In this document: one piece after another, positions 1 to 54,748 of the stretch | How the letters are laid out: every line of letters begins with the position of its first letter | How positions within the stretch are numbered: position 1 is the stretch's first letter | From: a candidate division FCPU426 bacterium | GTDB lineage: Bacteria; Oederibacteriota; Muellerivitia; Muellerivitales; DAHXKG01 | Assembly (NCBI GenBank): GCA_027366525.1 | Contig: DAHXKG010000002.1 | Coordinates: 1-64,000, forward strand | Length of the DNA: 64,000 nt | Direction of reading: 5' to 3' | The notes under the pieces: model-generated | What the model saw: only the letters and a program-made list of their open reading frames with translations | What the model was told of the DNA's origin: nothing | Databases searched by the model: none | Translations under genes and position numbers: made by a program

Positions 1-2763
1 CGTGGCGGTGGGCGTCCACGTGTTCGTGACCGTGGGAGTTCCCGTAGGCGTATTGGTATTTTGAGGAGTTAGCGTTCCGGTCGGCGTGGTGGTTGGGGTT
101 GAAGTAATCGTCGAGGTCAACGTCGAGGTTGCAGTGGCGGTAAAAGTCGGGCTCAATGTTGACGTGGCTGTAGCAGTGAAAGTCGAGGTTGGTGTTGTTG
201 TCAACGTCGAGGTTGCGGTGGCCGTGGAAGTTGGGCTCAATGTTGATGTGGCCGTAGCGGTGGAAGTCGTTGTTGAGGTTGCGGTGGCGGTATTGGCTAG
301 TGTGGCCGTGAGTGTAGGCGTAGCCGTATTGGTCGGGGTTGACGTGAGCGTCGAGGTCGGAGTCATCGTAACGGTATTCGTCGTGGTGGAGGTAGTTGTT
401 GGTGTCATTGTGGTGGTATTTGTCGCAGTGGGAGTGGCTGTGGGTGTCATCGTTACGGTATTGGTTGAGGTAGGGGTGTTTATAGGGGTTGAAGTACTAG
501 TGGCTGTAGGTGTTGCTAGCATTTGACCATAAATATAACCACGGCCACCAGTTGTTAAGTAACATTGTCCATAAATATGTTCATCGCCCGCAATATAATT
601 GTTTTGAAGCCAACCATATTGATGATTATTGTCATTGATGCGTACCCAACTTACTCCGGCGCCATCATCACATCTAAAAAAGCCATATTGTCCTCCAACA
701 GTGCCAATTAAGAAAATAGCTGGATGTGTTTCACCAGATGCGGGGGCTCCAAAACCAACACCATAGGCGTTAGTTACAGATGAAATTTGGGTTTCGACGG
801 GTGTTGAAGTTCCAAGACCAGTGAATCGATATAGAGAGCCACCATTAGCAGCAACCCATACTTCTCCTGAAATACCAAATACGGGTCGTGGAGTTCCAGA
901 TCCACTAAATGTTTCAGTCGATGAAAAACTTTGCCCTCCATTGGTGCTAACATAAAGAGTTCCGCCATCGGTAGCATAAAATAAATTAGAATTAACTCGA
1001 TCGGCAGCTACTATGGATCCAGAAGGAAGTCCGGTGCAAGTTGTCCACGCACCGCCGACAGTATTCGTCCAAGCCGGAGATCCATAACCAGCATAGGGAG
1101 ATACAATGACAATTTGTCCATTAGCTCCAACTGCGACTGATTGCATTTCATTGGATGTAGTATAGCCTGGAGGTGCTACGCCCCAGGGAGCCCAGGTAAC
1201 TCCATTATCATCTGAATAGGCGATATCTGAAGTAACAGAACCACTATTACCAACGCGTACAACAAAGTTGGGATTTGATTCAGCATAATCGAGAGCATTC
1301 GTATTGGTAAAAACTGGATTTCGATACATTCCGATGGTAGACGGTGAGGTCAGGCTAGTATTCAACATTCCACCGACATCGCCAACAGCACCTAGAAAAT
1401 TTCCATTAATTGCTGGTGGTAAAAATAGTGGAACGGTTTCTTCTAAACCAGAGTCATAAAAAGTCCACGTGACAGCTTGAGGAGCTCCAGACGCTTCAAT
1501 ATTTGAACTTACAAATAAACCTTCACCCGTTCCATAAAAAGCTTGATTTGAATTAAAGGGGTTGAGACAGACGGCTTCAACCCAGTTTGTGGCACCCGTA
1601 CCAATTTCAGTAACTCCAGTAGAGGGATCAAGAATATCTCCAAAATAAAGATAAAGAGCACCATTGACGTTGTACTGAGAATATGGTGATCCATATCCTG
1701 CGTCAGGATTGGCAATAACAACCCAACTGGTGCCTCCATTAGTGGTTTCTAAAACTTTGTCTGGACCATACCAATCTAGCGTGGAGACGATGGCGTGTTG
1801 CGGATTTTCAGCATCCACGCTAATTCCACCAGCTTGCCCACCCCAATTGGATGTAGGTGTAACATTGGTCCATGTGCCAGTTGCAATGGTATATTTCCAT
1901 ACTTGGCCGGATAATGTGACGCCAGTAACATCATACGGTCCATAATCATTGCCATAAGCGAGCCAGAGATTTCCATCGGAGCCTAAAGAAGCGTGTCTTG
2001 GGAAAAGGGAAACAGGGCCTCCGCTGACTTCACTCCAACTTGAACCCGCATTGGTTGATATATATAAATTGCTTCCACTGCCAGATTGATTGGCAACTCC
2101 AACTAGAATTGTTGTTGAAGCTGTTCCAGATGTGCCACCAAGGCCATCGACTATGACAAAAGATAAACCATATTCAGAAGCGCCATTAGGTAATCCGTTG
2201 CTATTGTTAGTTAATTGAGTCCAACTTGCACCTGAGTTTGTACTTTTCCAAAGTCCGTTATTGGGGGAAGCAAAGTAAAGAATTGCATCATCATTAGGAT
2301 CAACAGTTAATCGTTCCCCCATTCCGCGACCATTGGCATTCCCTCCCATTGAAACTGGAATATTATTAATAGTCCAACTGGCTCCTTGATTGGTTGAGCT
2401 AAGGATGACTCCATTACCACTTCCAAAATACATCCCAGCGGCAGCGTAGACAATATTAGCGTTTGCAGGATCCGGAGCAATGCTTTCAATGCCCATATAG
2501 TTTCCTTCACTCATGGGGAACATATCGGTCAAAGGAGTCCAACTATCAGTTGAACTGTTCCAACGATAAGCACCGCCAACATCTGTTCGTGCATAAATTA
2601 AACCAGATTGGGCCGGGCTGGCTACAATGCCATCAACAAAACCACCTCCCATAATGACAACATTGTTCCATTGGTACTGGCCAAACGCATAACATGGCCA
2701 AAAAGATAGCAGGATCCCCAAGCTAGATAGGATTAGATATAAAAATTTTCGAAATGAAATCAC
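1..2763 (-). CDS. Secreted GH74-like (xyloglucanase-type) beta-propeller protein, 3' end cut by window edge
   Basis: The minus-strand frame stays open from a GTG at 2763 to base 1 (921 codons, no stop). AAGGA lies 5 bases before the GTG. Residues 1-28 form a signal peptide. The mature start contains the GH74 hallmark: a GGGFV loop followed by ARTDVGGAYRW around Asp61. A second conserved site, GDVGGM with Asp462, matches the second acidic motif of the family. Many BNR-like repeats (STNxGxSW) build the two propellers up to about residue 745. From residue 750 to the edge the protein is a Thr/Pro/Asn-rich linker of the TPTxT type, so a further C-terminal domain or anchor is probably outside the window. 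Known GH74 enzymes cut xyloglucan outside the cell. The exact substrate is an inference, and a non-catalytic exo-sialidase-like propeller remains possible. GC looks higher than in the neighbours. Confidence 0.8.
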   Translation of the reverse strand, partial: MISFRKFLYLILSSLGILLSFWPCYAFGQYQWNNVVIMGGGFVDGIVASPAQSGLIYARTDVGGAYRWNSSTDSWTPLTDMFPMSEGNYMGIESIAPDPANANIVYAAAGMYFGSGNGVILSSTNQGASWTINNIPVSMGGNANGRGMGERLTVDPNDDAILYFASPNNGLWKSTNSGASWTQLTNNSNGLPNGASEYGLSFVIVDGLGGTSGTASTTILVGVANQSGSGSNLYISTNAGSSWSEVSGGPVSLFPRHASLGSDGNLWLAYGNDYGPYDVTGVTLSGQVWKYTIATGTWTNVTPTSNWGGQAGGISVDAENPQHAIVSTLDWYGPDKVLETTNGGTSWVVIANPDAGYGSPYSQYNVNGALYLYFGDILDPSTGVTEIGTGATNWVEAVCLNPFNSNQAFYGTGEGLFVSSNIEASGAPQAVTWTFYDSGLEETVPLFLPPAINGNFLGAVGDVGGMLNTSLTSPSTIGMYRNPVFTNTNALDYAESNPNFVVRVGNSGSVTSDIAYSDDNGVTWAPWGVAPPGYTTSNEMQSVAVGANGQIVIVSPYAGYGSPAWTNTVGGAWTTCTGLPSGSIVAADRVNSNLFYATDGGTLYVSTNGGQSFSSTETFSGSGTPRPVFGISGEVWVAANGGSLYRFTGLGTSTPVETQISSVTNAYGVGFGAPASGETHPAIFLIGTVGGQYGFFRCDDGAGVSWVRINDNNHQYGWLQNNYIAGDEHIYGQCYLTTGGRGYIYGQMLATPTATSTSTPINTPTSTNTVTMTPTATPTATNTTTMTPTTTSTTTNTVTMTPTSTLTSTPTNTATPTLTATLANTATATSTTTSTATATSTLSPTSTATATSTLTTTPTSTFTATATSTLSPTFTATATSTLTSTITSTPTTTPTGTLTPQNTNTPTGTPTVTNTWTPTAT

Positions 2764-9315: not shown

Positions 9316-10446
9316 TTAAATTAATTTTTGATAAATACGATATTTTTTATAAATGGTGCCTCCCATGGCTTTTATCCCATCATTTATAAGGTGATTGTCC
9401 TCTAAAGTCCATGAAAGTTCTCCACCAAGTACATTCCGTTTTTTCCCTGTTTTAAGTGCTTCCAAGTACATGATTGCATCAACACCTTTTTTTCGATATT
9501 CAGGTAGGACCCCCATGGCAATCATACGCGTGTCATTGATTTTTCGACTGTACCAGAGAAATTTAATTAAGCCTGATAGGTTTAACTCCCCATTCATGTG
9601 AATAAGAGCTTGATTGACATCGGGCAATACAATATTACAGGCAATGGGTTTACCGTTTACTTCAGCAAATTGAATAAAGTCTGGCCAAGCGATAGGTTTG
9701 AATTTTTTAGCCGCATATTCAAATTCCTTGTCCGTCATGGGAACAAATCCCCAGTTTTTCTCCCAAGCTTTATTATAAATGTCCTTAAGATAAGCGGTGT
9801 CCCGGTCGAAGTGCTTCATATCCAAAGATCGTACAGTAATATTTTCTTTTTTCATTACATAAGCGGCAATGCGACTGATTCGTTCAGGTATTTCAGTACT
9901 CGCTTTTAAATACCAAGCGTATAAATCCTTGATTTTAGTCAACCCGTTTTTTTCTGCGAGTTGATGGTAATAAGGAGGATTATAGGTCATGGTTATTTTG
10001 GGTGGAGAATCATAGCCCTCTAAAAGGAAAGCCACTTCATCATTAAGTGATGGACTGGCGGGACCACGTAAAATTTGCATGCCTTGTTCTTTAACCCATG
10101 TTTCAACGGTTTTAAATAGCAAATTAGCGGCCTGGAAATCATCGGGACATTCAAAAAATCCAAACCATCCTGTTTTTTCATTGTGAACTTGATTGTGTAG
10201 ATCATCAATAATTCCTGAAATTCTTCCGACTGCACTTTTTTGTTCATCCATTAAAATAAAATTTTGTACTTTCGCATGTTCAAAAAATGGATTTTTTTTA
10301 GGGTTCAGAATACTTCGGTAATCATCCAAAAAAGGTGGCACCCAATTGGGGTCCTTTTTCCCGTTTTGTATGTAAATTTTCCAAGGGACATGTAAAAAAA
10401 TTTCAAGTTCTTTTGGAGACATAACGGGAACAATGGTGTAGGGCAT
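9316..10446 (-). CDS. GNAT-fold acyltransferase, candidate bacterial ceramide synthase (bCerS-like)
   Basis: 376 residues. The N-terminal part (FLHVPWKIY, then WVPPFLDDYRSILNPKKNPFFEH) and the AVGRISGIID, GWFGFFE and LRGPASPSLNDE stretches are typical of a conserved GNAT-like family with two acetyltransferase-fold halves; a second acyl-CoA-like loop, MGVLPEYRKKGVDA, lies near residue 315. It is 35 bases behind the serine-palmitoyltransferase-like gene on the same strand, with AAAGGA before its ATG. In Caulobacter the ceramide synthase that N-acylates the long-chain base was identified as a protein annotated as a GNAT acyltransferase and encoded near Spt. The assignment here rests on fold, length and neighbourhood; I cannot show the acyl donor. 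Confidence 0.6.
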   Translation of the reverse strand: MPYTIVPVMSPKELEIFLHVPWKIYIQNGKKDPNWVPPFLDDYRSILNPKKNPFFEHAKVQNFILMDEQKSAVGRISGIIDDLHNQVHNEKTGWFGFFECPDDFQAANLLFKTVETWVKEQGMQILRGPASPSLNDEVAFLLEGYDSPPKITMTYNPPYYHQLAEKNGLTKIKDLYAWYLKASTEIPERISRIAAYVMKKENITVRSLDMKHFDRDTAYLKDIYNKAWEKNWGFVPMTDKEFEYAAKKFKPIAWPDFIQFAEVNGKPIACNIVLPDVNQALIHMNGELNLSGLIKFLWYSRKINDTRMIAMGVLPEYRKKGVDAIMYLEALKTGKKRNVLGGELSWTLEDNHLINDGIKAMGGTIYKKYRIYQKLI

Positions 10447-10481
10447 AGCATTCCTTTCTCGAATCCTAGTTAGAAGAAAAA

Positions 10482-11666
10482 TTATTTAATAATATTTAAT
10501 TTTTTCCCAATTTTATAAAACTTGTCTAAAACAATATCTAATTGTTCATCAGTATGGGTAGCCGTATAACTAGTACGAATAAGAGCCATTCCTGGAGGAA
10601 CCGCAGGGCTAACAATTGGTGTTGCAAAAACTCCTTCTTCTCCCAGTTCTTTAGACATGATGAACGCTTTCGCATCTTCACCAACTAAAATAGGTATAAT
10701 AGGCGATTGAGTGGAACCGGTATTATAGCCCATATCTTCAAAGCCTTTTTTCATTTTTTGAGCAATAGCCCAAAGTCGTTGCCGTCGTTCAGGTTCTCTT
10801 TTAATAATTTCAAGCGATTTCAATACGGCCGCCACAGCGGAAGGGGGCATGCTTGCAGAAAAAATCATAGGTCGTGATACATGTTTAAGATAATCAATTA
10901 CTTTTCGCGATGATGCAATAAATCCACCAAGTGATGCAAAGGATTTACTGAAAGTTCCCATTACAATATCAACATCGTTTTGAAGTAAAAAGTGTTCACC
11001 AGTTCCCGAACCATGCTTTCCTAATACGCCTATGGTGTGGGCTTCATCGACCATTAATCGTGCGTTATATTTATTTTTTAACTGAACTAACGTCGGAAGA
11101 TTGCAGATTTCTCCGCCCATGCTGAAAATACCGTCAGTGACGATCAGCTTAGGAGTGTCATAATCTAAACGACTGAGGATGCTTTCAAGATTTTTAGGAT
11201 CATTGTGATCGTACTTAATTGTTTTAGCAAAGGAGAGCCGGCAGCCATCTACAATACTTGCATGATTTTCTCGATCAGAAAGGATAAAGTCGCCTCGGGA
11301 AGCGATCGTAGATAAAATTCCCAGATTCGATTGAAATCCTGTAGAGAAAACAAGCGCAGCTTCCTTATTAACAAACGACGCAAGCTGGATTTCAAGGGTT
11401 TCGTGTAAATCGAGGGTTCCATTTAGAAAACGAGAACCGGTACACCCGGAACCATATTTTTGTATTGCGGCAATCATAGCGGCTTTAACTTCAGGATGAT
11501 TCACTAACCCAAGATAATTGTTAGAGCCAACCATAATCATCCGTTTACCATTAACCGTAACTTCGGTATCTTGAGCAGAGGAGATAGCTCTAAAATAAAG
11601 ATACAAATCTTGAGATCGTACATCGTCGGCTGTAGTCCAGTGATTGGCTTTGTCAAATAAATCCAT
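10482..11666 (-). CDS. spt: Serine palmitoyltransferase-like alpha-oxoamine synthase
   Basis: 394 residues, fold type I PLP enzyme. NNYLGLVNHP (49-58), GSGCTGSRFLNGT (72-84), His135 in the ENHAS loop, the DEAH motif (207-210) and the PLP lysine Lys241 in GTFSKSFASLGGF are present. The GSG-TGSR-LNGT stretch and FSASMPPS resemble serine palmitoyltransferase more than the glycine C-acetyltransferase (Kbl) or BioF sisters. The reaction would join serine and an acyl thioester to give 3-keto-sphinganine. Flanked by a bCerS-like gene downstream and a reductase-like gene divergently upstream. BioF/Kbl activity is the alternative. Confidence 0.75.
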   Translation of the reverse strand: MDLFDKANHWTTADDVRSQDLYLYFRAISSAQDTEVTVNGKRMIMVGSNNYLGLVNHPEVKAAMIAAIQKYGSGCTGSRFLNGTLDLHETLEIQLASFVNKEAALVFSTGFQSNLGILSTIASRGDFILSDRENHASIVDGCRLSFAKTIKYDHNDPKNLESILSRLDYDTPKLIVTDGIFSMGGEICNLPTLVQLKNKYNARLMVDEAHTIGVLGKHGSGTGEHFLLQNDVDIVMGTFSKSFASLGGFIASSRKVIDYLKHVSRPMIFSASMPPSAVAAVLKSLEIIKREPERRQRLWAIAQKMKKGFEDMGYNTGSTQSPIIPILVGEDAKAFIMSKELGEEGVFATPIVSPAVPPGMALIRTSYTATHTDEQLDIVLDKFYKIGKKLNIIK

Positions 11667-11706
11667 TATTTATCGCCCCTGTAATGTATAGTTTTTAAAT
11701 TTTTAT

Positions 11707-11734
11707 TTGCCATAAAAGTTTGCCGTATTATAAA
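11707..11734 (+). promoter_or_regulatory. Possible promoter in the spt / epimerase divergent spacer
   Basis: TTGCCA (11707-11712), 16 bases, then TATAAA (11729-11734). A perfect TATAAT also stands at 11747-11752 without a well spaced -35. The 132-base spacer must serve both divergent genes. Confidence 0.35.
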
Positions 11735-11798
11735 ATATGGTCCCAATATAATCAAACATTTTACCAATTTATTTGAGAAGTTGAATTATGATGTATTT

Positions 11799-12788
11799 AT
11801 GAAACCTTTAGTACTAATAACAGGAGCAAGTGGATTTGTTGGAAGTCATTTAACACGAGAACTTCTTAAAAAGAAATGGAATGTTAGATTACTTTTGAGA
11901 GAAAACAGCACGATTCCAGTTTTAAATTCCTCAAATTCCAATGTTGAAATTATCCGCGGCGATATCAGAAATCAAGATGAAGTGGAGCAAGCTGTTAACG
12001 GCGTTCATTACATTTTTCATTTAGCAGCAGTTCTAAAAGGGAAAAATCTTTCTGATTTTAAGCGTGTCAATGTCGAAGGCACTAAAAATTTATGTCGTGC
12101 ATTTGCAAAAAATAAAAATGCCAAACGATTTGTCTACATCAGCTCTTTGGCCGCTGCAGGGCCCGCCACAGGTTCTACGCCATTAACGGAGAACGATTTT
12201 GGTTCGCCCATTAGTTTTTACGGACAAACAAAATGGTTGGGCGAACAAATAGTGCTTTCCTATAGAAACGAATTTGCATCCGTTATATTACGGCCGGGCA
12301 TTGTTTATGGTCCTTATGAAAAAGATTTTTTTAATTTTTTTAAAATGATGAAATGGGGAATTGTGTTTTTACCGGGTAATGGAGAACAACGTGTCAGTGT
12401 GGTTTTTATTGATGATTTAATAAGAGCTATTGTAAAAGTAACTCAAGCTTCATCCGCCATGAATCAAATTTTTTTCATCGCGGAAAATCGAACGTATACA
12501 TGGAATGAAATTATTCAACAATTGGGTAGAGTCATGAATCGTAAATATATCGTTTGTAAAATACCGTGGAAGGCTGTAACGATGTTAGCTTTAATTTCAG
12601 AACAGTGGAGTCAAATCACTAAAAAAGCGGGTCTGCTCAATTTGGATAAAATCAAAGAAGCTCGAGCTTCGGCGTGGATTGGTAACCCAGAAAAGATGAA
12701 AAAATTACTGTCATTTCAATGTGAAATCGACTTGAATCAAGGATTGAGTGAAACGTTGATTTTTTATCAACAAGCCAAATGGATATAA
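11799..12788 (+). CDS. cerR: NAD-dependent epimerase/dehydratase-family reductase, candidate ceramide reductase
   Basis: 329 residues from the ATG at 11799. An in-frame TTG at 11781 adds six residues, but GAGAAG abuts it directly, and the Rossmann strand begins at the ATG. It is an extended short-chain dehydrogenase: LITGASGFVGSHL (glycines 9, 12, 15), HLAAV, the Ser-Ser loop YISSLAAAGP, and the catalytic YGQTK pair Tyr141 and Lys145, then LRPGIVYGP. In the Caulobacter ceramide pathway a member of this superfamily, CerR, reduces the keto group after N-acylation. The position opposite spt supports that role. A sugar epimerase or hydroxysteroid-dehydrogenase-like role cannot be excluded from sequence alone. 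Confidence 0.6.
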   Translation: MKPLVLITGASGFVGSHLTRELLKKKWNVRLLLRENSTIPVLNSSNSNVEIIRGDIRNQDEVEQAVNGVHYIFHLAAVLKGKNLSDFKRVNVEGTKNLCRAFAKNKNAKRFVYISSLAAAGPATGSTPLTENDFGSPISFYGQTKWLGEQIVLSYRNEFASVILRPGIVYGPYEKDFFNFFKMMKWGIVFLPGNGEQRVSVVFIDDLIRAIVKVTQASSAMNQIFFIAENRTYTWNEIIQQLGRVMNRKYIVCKIPWKAVTMLALISEQWSQITKKAGLLNLDKIKEARASAWIGNPEKMKKLLSFQCEIDLNQGLSETLIFYQQAKWI

Positions 12789-12812: not shown

Positions 12813-13844
12813 ATGGTTAAAAGACAAGCAATAGTAACATGGATTTTGTTGTTAATTTTATTATTTGAATTCAAAATCGGAGCGGCCCAAGAGAATGCCA
12901 TGCAATTAATTCCGCAAAAATATTTCTTGACTAATATTAGGGTGAAAAATGCAGTTGGTAAGCAGTCGAGTCATTTACTTTTATTTTCACATTTCAAACA
13001 GAGTTTGAATAAGGAGTATTTATTTTTGATTTTGCGAAAATTGAATTTTCAAAAAACACGACTTTCCAAAAGGAAAAATCTTTTAGAAATTTGCTCATAT
13101 AATTCATATTTAAATCGGTATCAAATTGGCTATCAGGAAAATGGATCTGAAATCAAATGGATTCAAATTTTCAAAAATAGCATGACCCCTTTTTTGCTTG
13201 TTGAAAGAGTAAGACGCGATAATCAAATTCGTTGGGAAATTATTGAAGATATTCACGATAAATTTTCTCGAATTTTAAAAACGCCTTGGGGCATTAAAGA
13301 CGCAACAATCCTTTATACTTATAAAAATCCAAAAATTTCGTTTATAATCAACAATACCCACCATACGTATCAATGGAATCCGAAATACATGGAATTTAAA
13401 GCATTGTGGAAAGTAAAACGGTTAGTTTGGCGGACTCCGGTACCAGTTAAAAAATCGACCCATTCGAACATCCGCGTGGTTTCAAAGCCATTGAACAAAT
13501 CAGAGCGGACTAAAATGAAAATGTCTGATTGGGGACTCATTCCGTTGATTTCACCATCACTTAAACAGGCGTTTATTCAATTATTGAAACAAATTCCTAA
13601 AACCGTTCGAAGTCATCAAACTATTTTATTGGGTAAGGATGCCAATCACTTTTTTTATTTGGCGCAAAAAAAACAGTTATCAACGTTGGAATTTATTCGA
13701 TTACGCGAGATTTATTTGACAAATGTGGCGCAAGCTTTTTGGGAAACAGGTGATCGGAACAATGCTGAGTTTTATCTGAATTTAGTATTAAAAGCACATC
13801 CGAATTTTCAGCCGGCACTCCAGCTAAGGAGCAAATTAAAATGA
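12813..13844 (+). CDS. Exported protein of unknown function with a C-terminal TPR-like helix pair
   Basis: 343 residues, ATG preceded by AAAGGGA. A signal peptide is visible (hydrophobic 8-23, ending near GAA-Q). The middle is rich in Lys, Trp and beta-prone stretches with no motif I recognise. The last 40 residues (AQAFWETGDRNNAEFYLNLV onward) look like one TPR unit. It follows the reductase by 24 bases and may be cotranscribed with it, which would tie it to envelope lipid work, but that is only positional. Confidence 0.65.
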   Translation: MVKRQAIVTWILLLILLFEFKIGAAQENAMQLIPQKYFLTNIRVKNAVGKQSSHLLLFSHFKQSLNKEYLFLILRKLNFQKTRLSKRKNLLEICSYNSYLNRYQIGYQENGSEIKWIQIFKNSMTPFLLVERVRRDNQIRWEIIEDIHDKFSRILKTPWGIKDATILYTYKNPKISFIINNTHHTYQWNPKYMEFKALWKVKRLVWRTPVPVKKSTHSNIRVVSKPLNKSERTKMKMSDWGLIPLISPSLKQAFIQLLKQIPKTVRSHQTILLGKDANHFFYLAQKKQLSTLEFIRLREIYLTNVAQAFWETGDRNNAEFYLNLVLKAHPNFQPALQLRSKLK

Positions 13845-13859
13845 AAGAAAACCTACCAC

Positions 13860-13942
13860 TGGTGCCGGAGGCGGGACTCGAACCCGCACGGTCTCCCATA
13901 CGCACCTCAAGCGTACGTGTCTGCCAGTTCCACCACTCCGGC
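13860..13942 (-). tRNA. tRNA-Leu (GAG anticodon), CCA encoded
   Basis: Read on the minus strand, the acceptor arm GCCGGAG (13942-13936) pairs with CTCCGGC, followed by an encoded CCA at 13860-13862. The D-arm has TGGTGGAACTGGCAGACA-type sequence, the anticodon stem TACGC/GCGTA encloses loop TTGAGGT (anticodon GAG), there is a long class-II variable arm as expected for leucine, and the T-arm is GCGGGTTCGAGTCCCGC. It reads CUC/CUU codons. Confidence 0.95.
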
Positions 13943-26531: not shown

Positions 26532-27299
26532 ATGGTTCATGACCACCGGGTTGTTGTAATTATGCCAGCATTGAATGCTGAAAAAACTTTGGAGAAAACC
26601 TATTCGGAAGTCCCCAAGGATATTGTCGATGAAATTATTTTAGTAGATGACCAAAGTTCAGATGCGACTCCAGAACTTTCCAAAAAATTAGGTATTCAAA
26701 CAATTGTTCATTTGACCAATACTGGATACGGTGGAAATCAGAAAACAGCATATCAAGCAGCGTTAAAAACGCAATCGGATTTTATTATTATGCTGCACCC
26801 AGATTATCAATATTCTCCCAAATTAATTACTTCTATGGCATACTTATTAGACAGTGGATTTTATGATGTTGTTTTAGGATCGCGCATTTTAGGAGGAGGA
26901 GCATTGCGCGGGGGAATGCCGTTATATAAATATTTTTTTAATAGAATCTTAACTGCAATACAAAATATTTTAATGGGTGCGAAATTGTCTGAATACCATA
27001 CAGGATATAGAGCCTATCGAAGGAAAGTACTTGAGGTCATTCCTTATTTAAATAATTCAAATGATTTCGCTTTCGACGCTCAATTGCTTTCGCAAGCCAT
27101 TTTTTGGGGGTTTTCTATCGGAGAAATTAGCTGTCCAACCCGTTATTTTTCAGAAGCTTCTTCTATTAATTTTCAAAGAAGTGTAAAGTATGGAATTCAA
27201 TGTTTAATTACGGCTTTCCAATTTCGTTTAGCAAAATGGAAATTGATGTCAAATGCGCTTTTTATCCCTCAAGATAGGAGAAGCAATAAGACCACTTGA
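26532..27299 (+). CDS. Family 2 glycosyltransferase, DPM-like
   Basis: 255 residues, ATG with GGCGAGGAG upstream. IIMPALNAEKTLEKTY, LVDDQSSDAT, NTGYGGNQKTAYQAAL and the acidic motif HPDYQYSP in place of D-x-D mark the same clade as the NTGYGGNQK-type transferases. EYHTGYRAYRRKVLEVIPYL and NDFAFDAQLL follow. It likely loads a sugar onto polyprenyl phosphate, giving the donor for the GT-C proteins downstream. Its stop overlaps the TTG start of the next gene. Confidence 0.85.
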   Translation: MVHDHRVVVIMPALNAEKTLEKTYSEVPKDIVDEIILVDDQSSDATPELSKKLGIQTIVHLTNTGYGGNQKTAYQAALKTQSDFIIMLHPDYQYSPKLITSMAYLLDSGFYDVVLGSRILGGGALRGGMPLYKYFFNRILTAIQNILMGAKLSEYHTGYRAYRRKVLEVIPYLNNSNDFAFDAQLLSQAIFWGFSIGEISCPTRYFSEASSINFQRSVKYGIQCLITAFQFRLAKWKLMSNALFIPQDRRSNKTT

Positions 27300-30200
27300 A
27301 AATGAAAACAATAGTTACCAAAAATTTTAAATCGATTCCTCCCTTAAAGGAATTATTAAAACGCCCTGTTTTTTGGCTTATTGTTGTTGCCCTCATTGGT
27401 GCGTTTTTTAGATTTTATAACCTGAATTGGGATTATTATCATTCATTTCATCCAGATGAAAGAAATATTTTTGGTCAAACTGCCTCAATCCACGAATCGA
27501 CGGGGTTTCGGGTAACATTTTTTTCATATGGACAATTTTCAATTTATTTATACCGAGCTACGGCTGAAATTCTGTCCGCTCCACAAATCTGGGCAGATGC
27601 ATTTGGAGTCCATCAAACAACAACATTTCTATGTAATTTTTCCTATTGGATTTTTTTGGCGCTAATAGTTGGGTTATTAGCTTATTTGTGCTTATGGAAC
27701 CAAGAACAACGTAGGAAAAAAATATTTTGGAGTGCCGGCATCATATTCACCGGTTTGGTTTTATTTGAAGTCTTTCCCATTTTTATTCATTGGTTTGATT
27801 TTTTAAGAGGATGGCAGGCACATGTCAGTAGTTTATTTTTAGTTGCAATTGTAGCGTATGCGGTTGCGGGTGTTTATTCAAAAGTTTTCGAGATAGACTG
27901 GATTAGCTGGCCCTTTTATATTGCTTCAGGTGCAGTATTTATATTTGGAATAATTCCAATGTTTCTCCCCATCGCCTTTAGTCAAACATTTGGACTATTT
28001 GCATTTGTTTTAATATTGCTTTCCCTGGCGTGGATTTGGGCATGGGTTTCAAAATGGGGAAGATTTAGCCTGAGTCTCTTGTCGGTTTCAATCATATTAA
28101 TACTTTTAAAACATGCGACTCCCAATTTTATTAATTACTCTCGTGAAATGATTATTGGACGCGGATGGGAAGCTATTTTTTCGACATTAACTATTTTCGC
28201 GGTTTATTACTTTGTGGAGAAAGCATATAAAAATCAATTTTTGGCGTTTCTGGCGGCTGCATTTTTTTCATTTTCGGTGATCAGTATTCAATTGGCTCAC
28301 TTTGGAATTACCGAGTCGTGCATTACTTTCTTGGTAGTCGTTACAGCCATTGCTTCGTATGATGTCGTTGAACATGAAAGTTGGAGATCTTATTTAATTG
28401 CGGGCGCCGCTTTTGGACTATCGATGGCCGCAAAGACAAGTAGTCTCTATTATATTTTGATTTTTGCGAGTGCACATTTAATTTCATTGGCTAAAAAAAA
28501 TAAAATGTATTGGCTTCAACAGGATCGACGTAATAAGGAAAATTATATATTCCGATTTGCGGGGGCGGTCCTTATTATTGTGCTGAATTTTATTGCTTTT
28601 CTTTTTGTTGCTATTAAATTCCGACCAATTATTTCAGATCTTTTTTATTCGGAACCTCAAGTAGCCGAAACCATTTGGATTATTTTGTTTTTGGCTTTAT
28701 TTGGTTTAGGAACATTTTTGTCGATTTGGGCAATTGCGGAATTTAAGGTTTTACGAGGCCAACTTCATCAATGGATCAAATTTTTAAGCTCAATTGGGCT
28801 CGGCGTTTTTTTGTTTTTCTTATTTTCGCCATGGTCTTTACTGGATTTTTCTGGATTTATGAAAGCAATGAATTATGAATGGAGTGTGGTTTCGCTAGCA
28901 AATGCATGCTACGTGCTGCAGTTTAAGAATACATTGCGATATATTTTTCAATTGCAAAATCTTGTTAATGTTGAATTATGGATTCCGTTGGGGATAACCA
29001 CCATTGTGGGAATGGTTTGGGTTATATGGAAATTAGTTTGGGGCCTATTGCATCCCGTTGCGGAGCCAGCTGTTTTACCAGTGCCATTTTCAAAGAAAAA
29101 AAGCTTCAATATTTCCGTAGGCGATTTTTTACTTTTATCTTGGTTTGTTCCATATTTTGTTTTTATTGGGGCTTGGAACACAAAATTCATTCGATATATG
29201 GTACCGTTAATTCCATTTTTTTGTATTTTTGGTGCAATTGTTTTAGTGGATTTTTTTTCATGGCTTCAAAAGATAAAAATTAAATTTTTTAAAGTTATTA
29301 GAATTATATTAGTCACTCTAGTGCTGGGAGGTAGTTTATTTTATTCATTGGCATTTATGCATGTTTATTTTCATCGGCACCCGTGGATCAAGGCATCAAT
29401 TTGGATGTATAAACACATTCCATATGGTTCAACAATTTTGACAGAAGTCTGGGATGATAGTTTACCTACGTGGATTGGGCCGTCCATGAGTAAAAGTGTT
29501 ACTCAAATTTTAAATCCATCCCTATATCGAAATATCGGCGTGAATATTTACAATCTTCCGGATAATACACTTCGGAAAAAAGAAATGTATGCACGAGTGT
29601 TAAAAGAAGGAGATTATATATCGATTTCGTCGAAAAAATTATGGTACACCTTAACCGATGAAACGCCAGAGTTCCGTCCTCATGGTTACAATAAATATCC
29701 TGTTACATCGCGCTACTATCGATTGCTTTGGTCAGGATTGCTCGGTTATCAAATGGTGGCGGAATTTCATAATTTCCCATCGTTTTTGGGATGGACACAT
29801 GATGATGATGCGGCAGAAGAAACGTTTTCAGTTTACGACCATCCGCATGTTTACATATTTAAAAAGGTTCGTGATGTACCTTCACAAGTGATTATAAAAC
29901 TTTTATCAACCAATGCGTTTGTGAAGGGTATTAATCGTTCAATTATGTTGACAATTGCTCCCCATAATTTAAAAAAATTTATGCGGCAACGAATTCACTA
30001 TTTGAAAAAAAGAGGCTTGTGGAAAAAACTTCAAAAATGGATGATGGAAGCACGTACATCCCAAAATGGAAAAATGGTTAATTTAACGCATCGTTCAAAA
30101 CCTCGCGATAACATTTTGATAAAACAAATTAATACGCGGCAAGTCCATGCACCATCACCGGTAAATTTTCCAGTTCCCTTAGGAGTTCCCAAGCTTCCCA

Positions 30201-33200
30201 GCCCCAAAGTTTTAAAAGTCCTAAATTATTTTAAAAAACATCCTGTTTTTGTTTCCAATGTTTTTGATATGCCGGAACCTCGGGCTCAAAAAATTGCCTA
30301 TGAAGTCCGGGCATGGATTTCTTGGGTTCTATTAATAATTGTTTTAGGGTGGATAGCTTTACCATTAACGTTAAAAGTGCTTGAACCCTTCCCGTCAGGA
30401 GCTTATTCCATAAGTAAGGTTCTGGGAATGTTGTTTTTTGGGTGGATCGTTTGGGTTATCGGCAGTTATAAAATTCTTCCGTTTTCTATGCTGGTATGTT
30501 GGATCATGCTTTTATTGATGATTGCAAGTTCCGCCATTTTGTATATGAAAAATTGGAAAAATTATTATTTACTATTTCAAACCTGGAAAAAAAGTTGGAT
30601 AACACAAGAAGTTATTTTTATTGGTGCTTTTAGTTTATTTACATTCATTCGCATTTTTAATCCTCATATTCATGATCCCATTGGCAATGGTTATAATGGG
30701 GGTGGAGAAGCTGGAATGGATTTCGGGTTTTTAGCTTCAATTGTGCGAGGACGAACGTTTCCACCGCAGGATATGTGGATGGCAGGACAACCAATTGGGT
30801 ATTCAATGTATTTTGGGCATATAATTATTGGCGTATTAACTAAGACCCTCGGCCTAGTTCCAGCAATCACGTATAACTTAGGAATTATAACATTATTTGC
30901 TTTGATTTTTTTAATTCCATTTGCAATTGCCTATTCTCTTTCTGGGCGATGGATGAGTGGTTGGATTGCGGGATATCTTTGCGCCATGGCAGGCAATTTA
31001 GCGGGTGCGAATCAGTATTTACACGTGATTAAGCAATGTATCACGAATGGACATTGGGGAAATTTAATTCACTATACGTTTGATTTTTGGGGCCCCTCTC
31101 GTGTAATTCCATATTCAATTAATGAATTCCCATTTTTTAGTGTTTTGTTTGCTGATTTGCATGAGCATACGCTGGCAATGCCGTTTGGTATGTTATACAT
31201 TGCCATGTTGGCGGCGCTATATGTATCATGTTCAAATTTGACTCAATTGAAGAAATATAGTTGGTTTCTAGTTCCACTCGGATTTGTGTATGGAGGCATA
31301 ACATTCATTAATACATGGGAAATTCCAACTTGGGGAACTTTAACAGTCATAGCGCTATTGGTGATGTTGATGCCAACGCTGAAAACCAATGTACTTTCAA
31401 AAAGTATAAAAATAATTTTTTCGGTTGGGATAGTGATGTTGATGGCGTTAGCTTGGTTCGGATTTGTAGATCCATCAAAAAACTATATGATTTTAGGAGG
31501 TCATACACGTTATATTGCGATATTTGGTTTTATTAGTTTCCTGATAGTTTTAAGTATCTTGTGGAAAAAATCGCAGCTTCAATCTGCAGCGAAGCAATTA
31601 TGGAGCATTTTTGTATTTTTAGTACTGTTCTTAATAATAGCAGTAATCTTTTGGTTGCCTTACTTTATTCAATTTCATCCCCAAAAACACGACATTTTGT
31701 GGGTTAAACCGCAGTACCGAACTAGCTTAAGTGATTACTTAATTATTTATGCTTCCTTTTTGTCAATAGTGGGGATTGGATTTATACCTGCATATGCTAC
31801 TGAATTGCTAGGTTCCATTCAAGCCAATTTCAAGCGTTCTAAAATTAAAGATTATTGGCAATGGATCTATGATTATGGAGAAAGAATTTTTCAGAAGTGG
31901 ATAAATCCTAGTCATGCAGTTTCAAGTATGCTATCACTGGGTGTAGCATCACTGATAGTGATTGTAGGTGCATCATGGGTTCATTTTACGTATCCACTGA
32001 ACCTGCTTTGGATTTCAATTAGCATTGCAACCATCATGTGTATTTTATGGATTATGGCATTGTTTTCGAAAAAAAGTATTTTTTGGATTTTATTTTTAAT
32101 TGGGGGCTTATGTTGGATTGCATTACTTATGAGTGGAATCATTGGGTTGCAGTATCACGCACTTCTAACATTAAACTTGGGAATTTTTTCTGTGCTCTGG
32201 ATTATGGCATTTGCTAATTTGGGATTTGCAATCCGAGTAAGAAAAAATCGAGCGCTTTCATTTATTTATATATTGATATCCGAATTTTTCTTTATTACAG
32301 CTACGGTCGAAATATTTGCAATTCAAGAATATTTGGGCGGAAAATGGATGAGAAATAACACATTATTTAAGTATGGAATTAATGCGTGGACACTCGGGTC
32401 GATTTCTGCTGGAGCAATAGCGCCATGGATATTTGATTTTATTAAAAAGATTTTTAAAACAATTCGACGTGAGAAACCATGGTTTAGGCCCATTGCGTTG
32501 TCAATTTCAACCATATTCATTGCACTAGCAATAACGGCATTATTTTCACAATTTCATTCGGTGTTTTCCAATCCAGCGATCTATATTTTTGAATTAATGT
32601 TTATTGAATGGGGATGGATTTGGTTAGTATGGAATAAAAAAATACCCCAGTGGTTTGGTTGGATAGGTGGGGTTTTTATTTTGCTCTTTTTGCTTTTACC
32701 AGTGTTGTGGCCTAATCCGGCTTTTGGAACAGTGCTCTATTTTATGCAGAATTTCACTGGAAATTTTAGAACCGGCTTTTTGTTTTCATTGGTTTTATCC
32801 ACTGTCCTGATCATTTCATTGACTTTGAATAATAAAATACAAGTATCAAAACTTCTTGCCCAATCATGGATAGGTTTAATAAGTGTTTTATTTATTATGA
32901 CATTGGTTTATCCAATTGCTGCGAGTATTTCGAAATGTCATGGTTTTTTTGCTACCACTAGAAAAGCCAGTATGGGATATAATGAACGGCCAACATTGGA
33001 TGGTTTGAATTATATGAAATTTGAAGATCCCTATGATTGGGCGGCCATTCGATTTTTAAATGATAATATTCCAGGTCAACCATGTTTAATTGAAGCCGTT
33101 GGTTTAGGTTATAATACGTGGGGTTCACGGTATTCTATTTTTACAGGTATCCCCGCATTAATGGGATGGAACGATCATGAAGAAGAATGGGTAGGGCAAT

Positions 33201-33457
33201 GGGAGAATCAAGCCATTGTTGATCGGTATAATGCAACAGTTAAAATTTATAACACCCAGAATAAAGTCTTGGCTCAAAAATTGTTAAATGCATATGGAGT
33301 CAGATTGATAATTGTTGGACCTTTAGAGCGCGGGGAACTGGAACCGCCGTTTCATTACAATGCAAGAGGATTAAGGAAATTTAAAACAATGCTTCCGTTA
33401 ATTTATAAAAATCCAGAGGTTGCAATTTATTATAATCCTCCATCGCAAGGTAGTTAA
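27296..33457 (+). CDS. Giant membrane protein: GT39-like half fused to DUF2298 (YYY) half
   Basis: 2053 residues, polytopic throughout. Start is TTG at 27296 (TTGA overlap with the previous gene); ATG at 27302 is equally possible. Residues 1 to about 700 look like a GT-C/GT39 transferase: membrane span 31-50, first external loop HPDERNIFGQ, HFGITESCITF, GLSMAAKTSSL and KFIRYMVPLIPFF. A periplasmic-type soluble part follows (700-990). From about 1008 a second module aligns by eye with the start of the neighbouring 841-residue DUF2298 protein, and near 1135 has NGGGEAGMDFGFL and FPPQDMWMAGQPIGYSMYFGH. The YYY triad is written YSMY. The two modules are usually separate genes. Confidence 0.8.
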   Translation: MKMKTIVTKNFKSIPPLKELLKRPVFWLIVVALIGAFFRFYNLNWDYYHSFHPDERNIFGQTASIHESTGFRVTFFSYGQFSIYLYRATAEILSAPQIWADAFGVHQTTTFLCNFSYWIFLALIVGLLAYLCLWNQEQRRKKIFWSAGIIFTGLVLFEVFPIFIHWFDFLRGWQAHVSSLFLVAIVAYAVAGVYSKVFEIDWISWPFYIASGAVFIFGIIPMFLPIAFSQTFGLFAFVLILLSLAWIWAWVSKWGRFSLSLLSVSIILILLKHATPNFINYSREMIIGRGWEAIFSTLTIFAVYYFVEKAYKNQFLAFLAAAFFSFSVISIQLAHFGITESCITFLVVVTAIASYDVVEHESWRSYLIAGAAFGLSMAAKTSSLYYILIFASAHLISLAKKNKMYWLQQDRRNKENYIFRFAGAVLIIVLNFIAFLFVAIKFRPIISDLFYSEPQVAETIWIILFLALFGLGTFLSIWAIAEFKVLRGQLHQWIKFLSSIGLGVFLFFLFSPWSLLDFSGFMKAMNYEWSVVSLANACYVLQFKNTLRYIFQLQNLVNVELWIPLGITTIVGMVWVIWKLVWGLLHPVAEPAVLPVPFSKKKSFNISVGDFLLLSWFVPYFVFIGAWNTKFIRYMVPLIPFFCIFGAIVLVDFFSWLQKIKIKFFKVIRIILVTLVLGGSLFYSLAFMHVYFHRHPWIKASIWMYKHIPYGSTILTEVWDDSLPTWIGPSMSKSVTQILNPSLYRNIGVNIYNLPDNTLRKKEMYARVLKEGDYISISSKKLWYTLTDETPEFRPHGYNKYPVTSRYYRLLWSGLLGYQMVAEFHNFPSFLGWTHDDDAAEETFSVYDHPHVYIFKKVRDVPSQVIIKLLSTNAFVKGINRSIMLTIAPHNLKKFMRQRIHYLKKRGLWKKLQKWMMEARTSQNGKMVNLTHRSKPRDNILIKQINTRQVHAPSPVNFPVPLGVPKLPSPKVLKVLNYFKKHPVFVSNVFDMPEPRAQKIAYEVRAWISWVLLIIVLGWIALPLTLKVLEPFPSGAYSISKVLGMLFFGWIVWVIGSYKILPFSMLVCWIMLLLMIASSAILYMKNWKNYYLLFQTWKKSWITQEVIFIGAFSLFTFIRIFNPHIHDPIGNGYNGGGEAGMDFGFLASIVRGRTFPPQDMWMAGQPIGYSMYFGHIIIGVLTKTLGLVPAITYNLGIITLFALIFLIPFAIAYSLSGRWMSGWIAGYLCAMAGNLAGANQYLHVIKQCITNGHWGNLIHYTFDFWGPSRVIPYSINEFPFFSVLFADLHEHTLAMPFGMLYIAMLAALYVSCSNLTQLKKYSWFLVPLGFVYGGITFINTWEIPTWGTLTVIALLVMLMPTLKTNVLSKSIKIIFSVGIVMLMALAWFGFVDPSKNYMILGGHTRYIAIFGFISFLIVLSILWKKSQLQSAAKQLWSIFVFLVLFLIIAVIFWLPYFIQFHPQKHDILWVKPQYRTSLSDYLIIYASFLSIVGIGFIPAYATELLGSIQANFKRSKIKDYWQWIYDYGERIFQKWINPSHAVSSMLSLGVASLIVIVGASWVHFTYPLNLLWISISIATIMCILWIMALFSKKSIFWILFLIGGLCWIALLMSGIIGLQYHALLTLNLGIFSVLWIMAFANLGFAIRVRKNRALSFIYILISEFFFITATVEIFAIQEYLGGKWMRNNTLFKYGINAWTLGSISAGAIAPWIFDFIKKIFKTIRREKPWFRPIALSISTIFIALAITALFSQFHSVFSNPAIYIFELMFIEWGWIWLVWNKKIPQWFGWIGGVFILLFLLLPVLWPNPAFGTVLYFMQNFTGNFRTGFLFSLVLSTVLIISLTLNNKIQVSKLLAQSWIGLISVLFIMTLVYPIAASISKCHGFFATTRKASMGYNERPTLDGLNYMKFEDPYDWAAIRFLNDNIPGQPCLIEAVGLGYNTWGSRYSIFTGIPALMGWNDHEEEWVGQWENQAIVDRYNATVKIYNTQNKVLAQKLLNAYGVRLIIVGPLERGELEPPFHYNARGLRKFKTMLPLIYKNPEVAIYYNPPSQGS

Positions 33458-33503
33458 TTGAGATTAAGATTATATTCATATTAATTGAGAAGGAGCACTT
33501 GAA

Positions 33504-36029
33504 ATGGGTCATGTTTTTGAATGGTGGCTAACGGTAACCATTTTAGGATTTTTATCGTTCCCTCTGACGTTTTTAACGTTTCGTTATTTACCGGATAAGG
33601 GATATGCATTTTCAAAAATTTTATCTCTTTTTTTGTTGGGATATTTTTCATGGATTTTGGGATATGTTGCGTGGAATGTATTAACCATTTTTTCGTCAGT
33701 TTTATTGTTGATATTTTTGTTTCTCTATTTGCTTTCAAAAACATGGGTTGCGTTAATTGATTTTTTAAAACAACATTTAGGTTACATCCTCATAATTGAA
33801 CTACTATTTTTCACGGCATTTTTCTTAGCGTGCTCTTATAAGATGCGAACACCAGCTATTTTAGGGACCGAAAAACCCATGGATTTTACAATGATCAATG
33901 GAATTTTAACATCCGCGCATATGCCTCCACATGATCCATGGCTGGCAGGGGGAAACATTTCTTATTATTATTTTGGGTATCTTCTAATGGCTATGTTAAT
34001 TAAATTAACATGGATAAAATCTTCAATCGGTTATAATCTTGGGGTTGCATTGATTTGGGCATTAGCTGCAGTGGAAGCATTTGGCTTAGTTTATGCGTTA
34101 ACACGCAAATACCGATACGCGGCTTTTTCTTCATTGGCATTAACCGTTTTAGGAAATTTGGATTTTTGGTATAGAGCCGTTCAGTCATATATTTATGGGG
34201 ATCTGCGAGTCCCATATTATAATATGACACCAAATCCTAATGCGGTTCGAGGATTACAAGGATTTTTTGATTTTGTTTTTAGTCCGCTTCATCACTACTG
34301 GGACTATTTTCAAGCATCGAGGATCATTCCGGTTAGTGCGACCGATAAAATGATTAATGAATTTCCTTCCTTTAGCTTTTTTTTGTCAGATTTGCATCCA
34401 CATTTGATGGTTATTCCGCTGGATTTATTGGCGATAGCTTTGGCATTTAATCTCTTGAAATCCCCATTGAAAAAATTATATGTTTTTGGAGAACGAACAG
34501 GGTGGCAAATTGCTCAGTTAATATTATTAGCTTTGGTTTTTGGAAGTTTAGGATTTACCAATAGTTGGGATTATCCAAGTTTAATTTTACTATTAACGGC
34601 ATGTTTAGCACTGCAACAATATTGGGCACTAGCAGATACTGGGGAGGGTGTTACAGTTAGAAATTGGGTCGATTCTTTGTGGAAATTAGGACTTCCAATT
34701 TATGTTGGTACATTTTTGTTTTATCTTCCATTTTATTGGAAATTTCAATCGCAAGCCTATGGTATTGGAATTGTTCACAACAGAACAAATTTTGGCTATT
34801 TCATCGTGATTGTTGGCTTGTTTTTGATTTTTATCATACCCGCCGTAATTGGAATGTTTTTTTCAGCCTTAACTTCGAAAAATACTAAAAATAAAATTAA
34901 AAAAGCAGCAGTGGAATTTGAATGTGTTCTTTGTAAACGAATTGGACGTGAGAAAAAATTCTGTGGGTATTGTGGTGGAGAACTAATCCCAGTTTATGAT
35001 ACCGAAGTAATGCCGTTACCAGATGGGTCTTTTAAAACTTGGAGTTTAACGAATTGGTCTAAATTTTTCCCATCAAATCAACCACTTAGAAAATGGTTGG
35101 TTTTAATAAGTATCCTAATTCTGATTTTTATTTTGAATTTGGGACAACTACAATTCTCAGTAGTGCTATTTTCGATTATATTTATCATTTTATTAATATC
35201 GACATTATTAACGAAATCAGCAAATAAAGAGATGGTTTTTATAACTTTAGTTCTTATTCTTGCGTTTAGTATTATGCTTGGATGTGAACTCATTTTTGTC
35301 CGAGATGAATTTCAATCGACGGATTTATATCGAATGAATACATTTTTTAAATTTTATTTTCAGATTTGGATTTTATTTAGTATTGCTTCTGGCCCATTAA
35401 TTAAATGGATTTTTGAAAATCAGTGGAAGGGGTGGCACTTATACAAAAAAACGATTTGGTTAACAATTGCAATTATAGGTTTAATCGGGTCTGGGTTATA
35501 CCCAATATTAACTTTAATTTCTAGAACCAAAGGAATTAAACGTAGCGAACTGACTTTAAATGGGAATAGAATGTTCGATCAGATGGACCCCTCGGATGCA
35601 GCCGCGATTCATTGGATTGAACGAAACATTAAACCAATTAATGGAAAAGCACCGGTTATTTTGGAAGCTTGGGGTGGCTCATATACAAATTATGCTCGTG
35701 TTTCGATGCGAACAGGTTATCCGACAGTTTTGGGTTGGAATTTTCATGAAGCTCAATGGCGCGGCTCATGGAATAAGGCGGTCATTCCAGGAGGAAGTCC
35801 ATATGATACGGTGTTGCAACGTCAATCTGATGTGGACACTATTTATAAAACTACGAATCTTGAGACAGCACGACAATTATTGCAAAAATATGGTGTCAAA
35901 TATGTCTATATTGGTTATTTAGAAATGCAAAAATATCCTAATAATCAAGCTGGTTTTTCTAAATTTTCTCAACTTGGAAATATTGTTTATTCAAATGATG
36001 GCGTTACAATATATAAAATAAATGGGTAA
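33504..36029 (+). CDS. DUF2298 (Chlor_Arch_YYY, TIGR03662) membrane protein with internal zinc ribbon
   Basis: 841 residues, ATG with GAGAAGGAG upstream, about 16 membrane spans. The family signature HMPPHDPWLAGGNISYYYFGY (read in two parts, near residue 140-160) has the name-giving YYY. FINEFPSFSF-type and DLHPHLMVIPLD follow. Between two span groups at about residues 473-490 is a four-cysteine zinc ribbon (CVLCKR then CGYCGG). The last 150 residues are a soluble domain with EAWGGSYTNYARVS and a TGYPTVLGW stretch. It shares this C-terminal layout with the fused protein upstream (IEAVGLGYNTWGSRYS). Function of the family is not established; the fold suggests lipid-linked sugar handling. Confidence 0.85.
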   Translation: MGHVFEWWLTVTILGFLSFPLTFLTFRYLPDKGYAFSKILSLFLLGYFSWILGYVAWNVLTIFSSVLLLIFLFLYLLSKTWVALIDFLKQHLGYILIIELLFFTAFFLACSYKMRTPAILGTEKPMDFTMINGILTSAHMPPHDPWLAGGNISYYYFGYLLMAMLIKLTWIKSSIGYNLGVALIWALAAVEAFGLVYALTRKYRYAAFSSLALTVLGNLDFWYRAVQSYIYGDLRVPYYNMTPNPNAVRGLQGFFDFVFSPLHHYWDYFQASRIIPVSATDKMINEFPSFSFFLSDLHPHLMVIPLDLLAIALAFNLLKSPLKKLYVFGERTGWQIAQLILLALVFGSLGFTNSWDYPSLILLLTACLALQQYWALADTGEGVTVRNWVDSLWKLGLPIYVGTFLFYLPFYWKFQSQAYGIGIVHNRTNFGYFIVIVGLFLIFIIPAVIGMFFSALTSKNTKNKIKKAAVEFECVLCKRIGREKKFCGYCGGELIPVYDTEVMPLPDGSFKTWSLTNWSKFFPSNQPLRKWLVLISILILIFILNLGQLQFSVVLFSIIFIILLISTLLTKSANKEMVFITLVLILAFSIMLGCELIFVRDEFQSTDLYRMNTFFKFYFQIWILFSIASGPLIKWIFENQWKGWHLYKKTIWLTIAIIGLIGSGLYPILTLISRTKGIKRSELTLNGNRMFDQMDPSDAAAIHWIERNIKPINGKAPVILEAWGGSYTNYARVSMRTGYPTVLGWNFHEAQWRGSWNKAVIPGGSPYDTVLQRQSDVDTIYKTTNLETARQLLQKYGVKYVYIGYLEMQKYPNNQAGFSKFSQLGNIVYSNDGVTIYKING

Positions 36030-53588: not shown

Positions 53589-54746
53589 ATGCCAATTCTT
53601 ATTGAATATTTTTTAATTGAATTAATTGGGCCTTTTTTATTAGCAATGATCTCCTCAATGTTTATTCTTGATTTATTATTTTATTTGTTATCATTTCTAA
53701 ATAATATTTTTGTTCAACAAATAGGGCTTGAGAATTCAATCAAACTATTTATTTACTACCAGCCTAGCTTATTAGTTTTAGCGCTCCCAATTGGATTTTT
53801 AACAGCTATTTTAATTGTGTTTGGACGCATGAGTATGGATCGAGAAATTTCTGCTATATCGGCTTCTGGCATATCTTTATGGACCATTATTGTCCCTGTA
53901 TTGACTGCATCAGCATTGTTTAGTTTTTTTTTAGTGATTGTTATGAATGTTCTTTTACCATGGGGAAACACATCTTACGTTAAATTGGAATATGCGATCT
54001 TATCGAGGCAGGAAAGTGTCCTAATTCATAAAAAGGAATTTATAAAGCATTTTAACCGTTATGTCTTATATGTTAACAAAAAAGAGGATTCAAAAAACGA
54101 ACTGAAAAATGTTGTGGTTTTTTTTACGAACCGCAAGGAAAATCCATATAGGGTTATCATAGCGAAACTAGGTCGCTTTATCAAAAATTCTAACCAAAAT
54201 TTAATACTGGAACTTAAAGATGGATTTATTCAACAATTAGGTAAAACTTTAAAAAATAAAATTCTTTTATCACAGATGATTGTAATGAAATTTCACCAAT
54301 GCAACTTGGATTTAAATCATAATTATTCAAAATTTAGTTCTGAAAATTTTGAAAATCCATTAAATATTGATATGAAAGAATTGGCTCTCAAGATTCAACA
54401 TGCCTCAAAAAAACATGAAGTTAACTCGTCCATTCGAAATATGGAAATGGAATATTATAAAAAAACTTCGATCCCATTTTCTGCACTCGCGTTTGCTTTT
54501 ATTGGGATACCCTTAGGCATTAAAATGCAATCGGGAATTTATTTAGGACCCATTTTGGCTTCTGGTCTAGTACTAGTCTATAATTTTTTTATTTTATATG
54601 GCCAAACGAGTAGTCCAATGGGACTTATTTCTCCATTTTGGTCAATGTGGTTGCCTAATGTGATTCTGATGGTGGTTGGCGTAGCACTTTTATTGATACC
54701 AAGCATCATGCTATTTATACGTAAACGTACAAAAATAGAAAACTGA
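53589..54746 (+). CDS. lptF: LptF/LptG-family lipopolysaccharide export permease
   Basis: 385 residues, ATG at 53589. Two N-terminal and four C-terminal-region spans with the beta-jellyroll periplasmic domain between (about 125-280): MSMDREISAISASGIS is the coupling helix that touches the ATPase LptB, then NVLLPWGNTSY and IPFSALAFAFIGIPLGIKM. It ends two bases before lptD. Only one permease is present here; a partner may be elsewhere or the protein may be a homodimer. Confidence 0.9.
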   Translation: MPILIEYFLIELIGPFLLAMISSMFILDLLFYLLSFLNNIFVQQIGLENSIKLFIYYQPSLLVLALPIGFLTAILIVFGRMSMDREISAISASGISLWTIIVPVLTASALFSFFLVIVMNVLLPWGNTSYVKLEYAILSRQESVLIHKKEFIKHFNRYVLYVNKKEDSKNELKNVVVFFTNRKENPYRVIIAKLGRFIKNSNQNLILELKDGFIQQLGKTLKNKILLSQMIVMKFHQCNLDLNHNYSKFSSENFENPLNIDMKELALKIQHASKKHEVNSSIRNMEMEYYKKTSIPFSALAFAFIGIPLGIKMQSGIYLGPILASGLVLVYNFFILYGQTSSPMGLISPFWSMWLPNVILMVVGVALLLIPSIMLFIRKRTKIEN

Positions 54747-54748
54747 AA

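Follow-up and report, generated by a model that had tools for sequence, protein, structure and literature searches.

Bacterial dihydroceramide synthesis by a serine palmitoyltransferase (SPT, or Spt), a bacterial ceramide synthase (bCerS) and a ceramide reductase (CerR) is already known as an enzyme set. In Caulobacter, SPT is fed by a dedicated acyl carrier, AcpR, and a synthetase, AasR, and the Caulobacter gene CC_1154 and E. coli yghO are listed as one and the same N-acyltransferase gene for making dihydroceramide (PMC9386255). Whether acylation or reduction comes first is disputed, and two models exist (PMC11087976). Spt-like enzymes have been predicted in 38 Black Sea phyla, according to the main text of PMC11334938, which does not name FCPU426 as a sphingolipid producer. 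A literature search combining FCPU426 with sphingolipid returned nothing relevant.

We analyzed a window of 64,000 nucleotides, the whole stretch of DNA considered here, from a member of candidate division FCPU426 whose genome is 2.0 Mb in size and 97.5% complete. Three adjacent genes in this window are predicted, with a probability of roughly 0.88, to encode a three-enzyme core for the dihydroceramide backbone. The analysis establishes the families of the proteins, their catalytic residues, the conserved synteny and a natural SPT-GNAT fusion in the phylum, and it detects no dedicated acyl carrier. SPT would convert L-serine and a fatty acyl thioester to 3-ketosphinganine and CO2, the GNAT-fold protein (bacterial ceramide synthase) would add a second fatty acyl chain onto the amine, and a divergently encoded SDR enzyme would reduce the ketone; we infer these substrates and activities, the acyl donor and the production of the lipid in the FCPU426 member. 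The trio adds a lineage to the wide list of predicted sphingolipid makers, and predicted sphingolipid synthesis, with its three genes together, is extended to candidate division FCPU426.

Layout and conservation of the locus

The features of the locus are as follows.

9316..10446, minus strand: bCerS-like N-acyltransferase (tandem GNAT fold, YghO/CC_1154 family), 376 aa
10447..10481, minus strand: spacer of 35 bp that separates the SPT gene from the GNAT gene and includes a Shine-Dalgarno-like AAAGGA ahead of the GNAT start
10482..11666, minus strand: predicted SPT (PLP alpha-oxoamine synthase), 394 aa, with Lys241, His135, Asp207/His210 and the SPT-type Ala271
11667..11780, no strand: divergent intergenic region of 114 bp between the SPT and reductase genes, a layout kept in relatives of the same order
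11781..12788, plus strand: CerR-like NAD(P)-dependent SDR/epimerase-type reductase, 335 aa, with GASGFVG and YGQTK

The earlier note had described a trio of adjacent genes, two on the minus strand and one divergent, and we recovered all three frames at these coordinates with no internal stop in any of them. On the minus strand the SPT gene comes first and the GNAT gene follows 35 bp on, and the two may be read as one transcript, while the intergenic region could be a regulatory region common to the SPT and reductase genes. The reductase frame opens with a TTG at 11781, and an in-frame ATG at 11799, which sits just before the Rossmann motif, appears to be the likelier start. Downstream, 24 bp behind the reductase, lies a gene for a 343-aa protein (12813-13844, plus strand) that is possibly co-transcribed and has no Pfam or NCBIfam match, and an Rfam search places a tRNA gene at 13863-13942 on the minus strand.

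The arrangement of adjacent SPT and GNAT genes with a divergent reductase recurs in relatives of the same order whose contig reaches far enough. The reductase also lies beside SPT in the FCPU426 families f2, f4 and f12, in the last two of which the GNAT gene has been relocated. More widely, we scanned for GNAT loci with a tight GNAT alignment (one built from 16 diverse GNATs was too heterogeneous for the scan). The 80 named loci span many phyla, including Zixibacteria, Calditrichota, KSB1, Ignavibacteria, Gemmatimonadota, Myxococcota and others. SPT is encoded directly upstream of GNAT in 43 of these 80 loci, 33 of which also include the reductase (26 divergent, seven co-directional). Nearly all of 26 genomes, picked mostly for an SPT gene that does not adjoin the GNAT gene, encode a strong SPT elsewhere; the exceptions are two Myxococcaceae and a Chloroflexi genome whose match, at 1.7e-88, is ambiguous. 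Across 39 FCPU426 genomes, SPT and GNAT occur together in 19, SPT alone in one (where a contig end cuts the locus), GNAT alone in six and neither in 13 (Fisher p = 4e-5, a value that is only indicative because the FCPU426 genomes are related).

The same three genes form the sets of Rubrobacter radiotolerans, Streptomyces sp. NBC_01001, Aureispira anguillae and Myxococcus. Aureispira anguillae shares the divergent layout of the window, whereas the three genes of Rubrobacter, Streptomyces and Myxococcus are co-directional. The SPT match (E=2.7e-132), the conserved neighborhood and a confident tandem GNAT model confirm that the gene set goes beyond chance.

The predicted N-acyltransferase and reductase

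The GNAT-like protein has no match in Pfam or NCBIfam. Its AlphaFold model shows a tandem GNAT fold (pLDDT 94), and Foldseek matches the model best to GNAT proteins (E about 1e-13), most of them tandem. In sequence it aligns with a Sphingomonas parapaucimobilis protein and with E. coli YghO at 33-34% identity over 99% of its length (E 1e-56 to 4e-58; 33.5% for YghO). The S. parapaucimobilis homologue (33%) is an N-acetyltransferase encoded in a plasmid cluster with an acyl carrier protein, spt, lptF and lptG, and the window GNAT protein is the single match in its genome to the cluster N-acyltransferases. At the E. coli locus, the order of spt, a carrier-sized 82-aa frame, an epimerase-type gene, a 573-aa frame and yghO equals the published ECD_02854-02850 order. 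The tie of the window protein to CC_1154 runs through YghO (PMC9386255). The protein thus falls in the YghO/CC_1154 N-acyltransferase family and not in an unrelated acyltransferase family, in agreement with its initial description as bCerS-like, and its assignment to the bacterial ceramide synthase family, with the corresponding predicted function, is supported. As with CC_1154 (bCerS/CerS) and YghO (ECD_02850), the gene accompanies spt, and the protein is homologous (33%) over its full length to YghO and to the Sphingomonas protein; unlike those genes, which are separated from spt across a larger cluster, it lies directly behind spt.

Members of this GNAT family are also found without SPT in six FCPU426 genomes and without a strong SPT in two Myxococcaceae, so family membership alone leaves the substrate unfixed. 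In the two Myxococcaceae (L098, 4276-6723; L122, 5683-8697), tandem GNAT homologues that are 44% and 35-36% identical occur without a strong SPT, and these tandem copies suggest that part of the family may act on another substrate.

The reductase is an SDR with the Rossmann motif GASGFVG (GxxGxxG) at 15 and YGQTK (YxxxK) at 147. No signal peptide is evident by eye; CerR is periplasmic in Caulobacter. PDB matches of the window protein include NDUFA9-type 39-kDa subunits of complex I, to which CerR is likewise related (PMC11087976). With the E. coli cluster reductase as query, the window reductase is the top match in its genome (E=4.8e-27, the next being 2.7e-5, in a one-way test). At 26%, identity to the E. 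coli protein is low, and the CerR assignment therefore depends chiefly on the conserved neighborhood. The enzyme resembles CerR (CC_1164) and E. coli ECD_02852 in being an SDR with GxxGxxG and YxxxK, in lying adjacent to spt and in being the best match in its genome; it differs in its 26% identity to the E. coli protein and in its divergent transcription. Its predicted function as a CerR-like ceramide reductase is supported.

HpnA-type sugar epimerases belong to the same superfamily as the SDR reductase, and HpnA is the top NCBIfam model for the window protein (130.5 bits). SPT and the GNAT protein might make an N-acyl long-chain ketone, with the divergent SDR acting as a sugar epimerase or other enzyme and the true reductase encoded elsewhere, a reading that gains from the fact that SDRs are widespread and from the unlinked Bacteroides reductase BT_0972 (PMC9278070). 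We consider it improbable, since the HpnA score is far under the cut-off of 367.65, no other protein of the genome matches the E. coli cluster reductase as well as the window protein does, and the gene stays beside SPT where GNAT has moved off and is present in 33 of the 43 SPT-GNAT loci.

The predicted serine palmitoyltransferase

The closest solved relative of the synthase is the Sphingobacterium SPT 3a2b (444.6 bits, E=2.7e-132), and scores to other enzymes are 321.9 bits for a Thermus Kbl/BioF-like enzyme, 304.6 for the Sphingomonas wittichii SPT, 289.7 for E. coli Kbl, and 268.7 and 239.7 for the cysteate enzymes 28eh and 7u7h. The top NCBIfam model is SerpalmtaseCFB (553.9 bits), with the equivalog cut-off of 640 (NF047600) missed. 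As controls, a Parabacteroides SPT passes this cut-off (683.8) and a Myxococcus SPT falls below it (497.1); because the window synthase, like that of Myxococcus, scores below a cut-off tuned to Bacteroidota, we file it as an SPT in the broad sense only.

The Spt-like motifs quoted in the earlier note are present, with TGSRFLNGT at residues 76-84 and FSASMPPS at residues 269-276. The PLP-binding Lys241 in GTFSKS and the PLP-site residues His135, Asp207 and His210 align with SmSPT. Side chains of SmSPT that contact PLP or serine are Asn52, Ser81, His138, Ser185, Thr241 and Lys244 (PMC10196870), and all six are kept in the window synthase. The alignment with the Sphingobacterium multivorum SPT (3a2b/8guh) and with Bacteroidota enzymes is ungapped over residues 5-390, and the S. 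multivorum enzyme shares the catalytic and serine-site side chains, the GTFSKS motif and the SPT-type alanine, whereas Ile268 of the window protein replaces Met271, a backbone contact. Active-site Lys281 sets the cysteate acyltransferase SulA apart from SPT (PMC9304779); the corresponding position is Ala271 in the window synthase, Ala in every SPT row and Thr or Asn in Kbl/BioF. We reject identity as SulA, and with it a sulfonolipid enzyme, on the basis of Ala271.

These residues also bear on whether the same pathway makes a non-canonical backbone, which would be a 1-deoxyceramide if alanine or glycine were used and a sulfonolipid if cysteate were. The active sites of SPT and SulA are nearly identical (PMC9304779), slow acceptance of alanine and glycine by SPT is reported (PMC10196870), and so are 1-deoxyceramides from the Black Sea (PMC11334938). 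We nevertheless regard such a product as very unlikely, given an alanine and not a lysine at the SulA-defining position, the conserved serine-site side chains, and 444.6 bits to SPT against 268.7 (28eh) and 239.7 (7u7h) to the cysteate enzymes.

In an unrooted tree of 48 rows, the window synthase falls outside a clade (99/97) that unites Kbl, BioF and two PKS-associated synthases, and AU tests reject forcing the window synthase with Kbl (p-AU 0.0007) or with BioF (p-AU 0.002). This phylogeny is the comparison that the earlier note had proposed for its naming of the gene as Spt, and the name stands; Kbl/BioF identity is rejected by the tree and AU tests. Two alphaproteobacterial plasmid matches (Thioclava, Methylocystis) proved to be PKS-associated synthases and not sphingolipid clusters. 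The window SPT sits in a branch of FCPU426, Zixibacteria and Calditrichota, unlike Bacteroidota SPTs, for which the equivalog cut-off that it misses was set. As the tree has no root and a long branch leads to the Rhodobacteria-type SPTs, we make no claim of a single SPT origin. That the synthase is the cell's Kbl or BioF with unrelated neighbors is scarcely credible: Kbl and BioF are homologous and the window protein is the only oxoamine synthase of its type detected in the genome, but the tree and AU tests, the residue signature and the synteny with GNAT and reductase across phyla speak against it, as does a second oxoamine synthase (35-38% identical) in the relatives G001-G007. The identification of the 394-aa protein as a bacterial SPT of the broad family is supported, and serine/palmitoyl condensation is its predicted activity.

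Acyl donor, gene fusion and order of reactions

We found no dedicated acyl carrier by spt, unlike the AasR-AcpR-Spt system of Caulobacter, and the single PP-binding match of the whole genome is on another contig, although a divergent carrier could escape such a search. The whole genome likewise has one AMP-binding match, on a different contig from SPT, which may be AasR or another enzyme; in Sphingomonadaceae, aasR likewise lies apart from spt (PMC9386255). The acyl donor is probably a housekeeping acyl-ACP or acyl-CoA. The initial description of the set as Caulobacter-type thus holds for the three enzyme families but not for the SPT clade, which is nearer to the Bacteroidota/Myxococcus/FCB type than to Caulobacter/Sphingomonas, nor for the dedicated AcpR-AasR pair, which was not found.

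The FCPU426 genome G032 (L047/L025, contig G032:C96, positions 165-2561, minus strand) encodes SPT and GNAT in one uninterrupted 799-aa frame, the two halves being joined by a linker rich in proline and lysine. The fusion was seen once, in a draft genome and close to the end of a contig, and four genomes of the phylum of G048 contained no further SPT-GNAT fusion. The fusion supports a functional link between SPT and GNAT and weakly favors acylation directly after condensation.

The earlier note had also read the genes as following the order of the chemistry. The Caulobacter-type enzyme set stands, but gene order tells nothing of reaction order. We offer only tentatively the idea that SPT passes 3-ketosphinganine straight to its bCerS partner, with N-acylation before reduction, and on balance we doubt it. 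If acylation did come first, that order would be recorded in nature by the G032 fusion and by the pairing of SPT with GNAT across from a divergent reductase, and the fusion would provide a single bifunctional enzyme for settling the dispute. The missing dedicated carrier and the natural fusion are handles on the acyl donor and on the order of acylation and reduction.

We also considered whether a sphingolipid replaces LPS for want of lipid A, and found no support for this, as LpxC is encoded in this genome and in 19 of 19 genomes searched. Elsewhere in the window, about 41 kb from the SPT gene, an LptF/LptG-type permease is followed by an LptD_N/OstA-like protein (53589-56842, plus strand). 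Two tandem genes on the plus strand (27296-33457 and 33504-36029) encode proteins of 2053 and 841 aa, both with DUF2298 membrane modules, and this tandem (27296-36029) adjoins genes for family 2 glycosyltransferases and NHL-repeat proteins.
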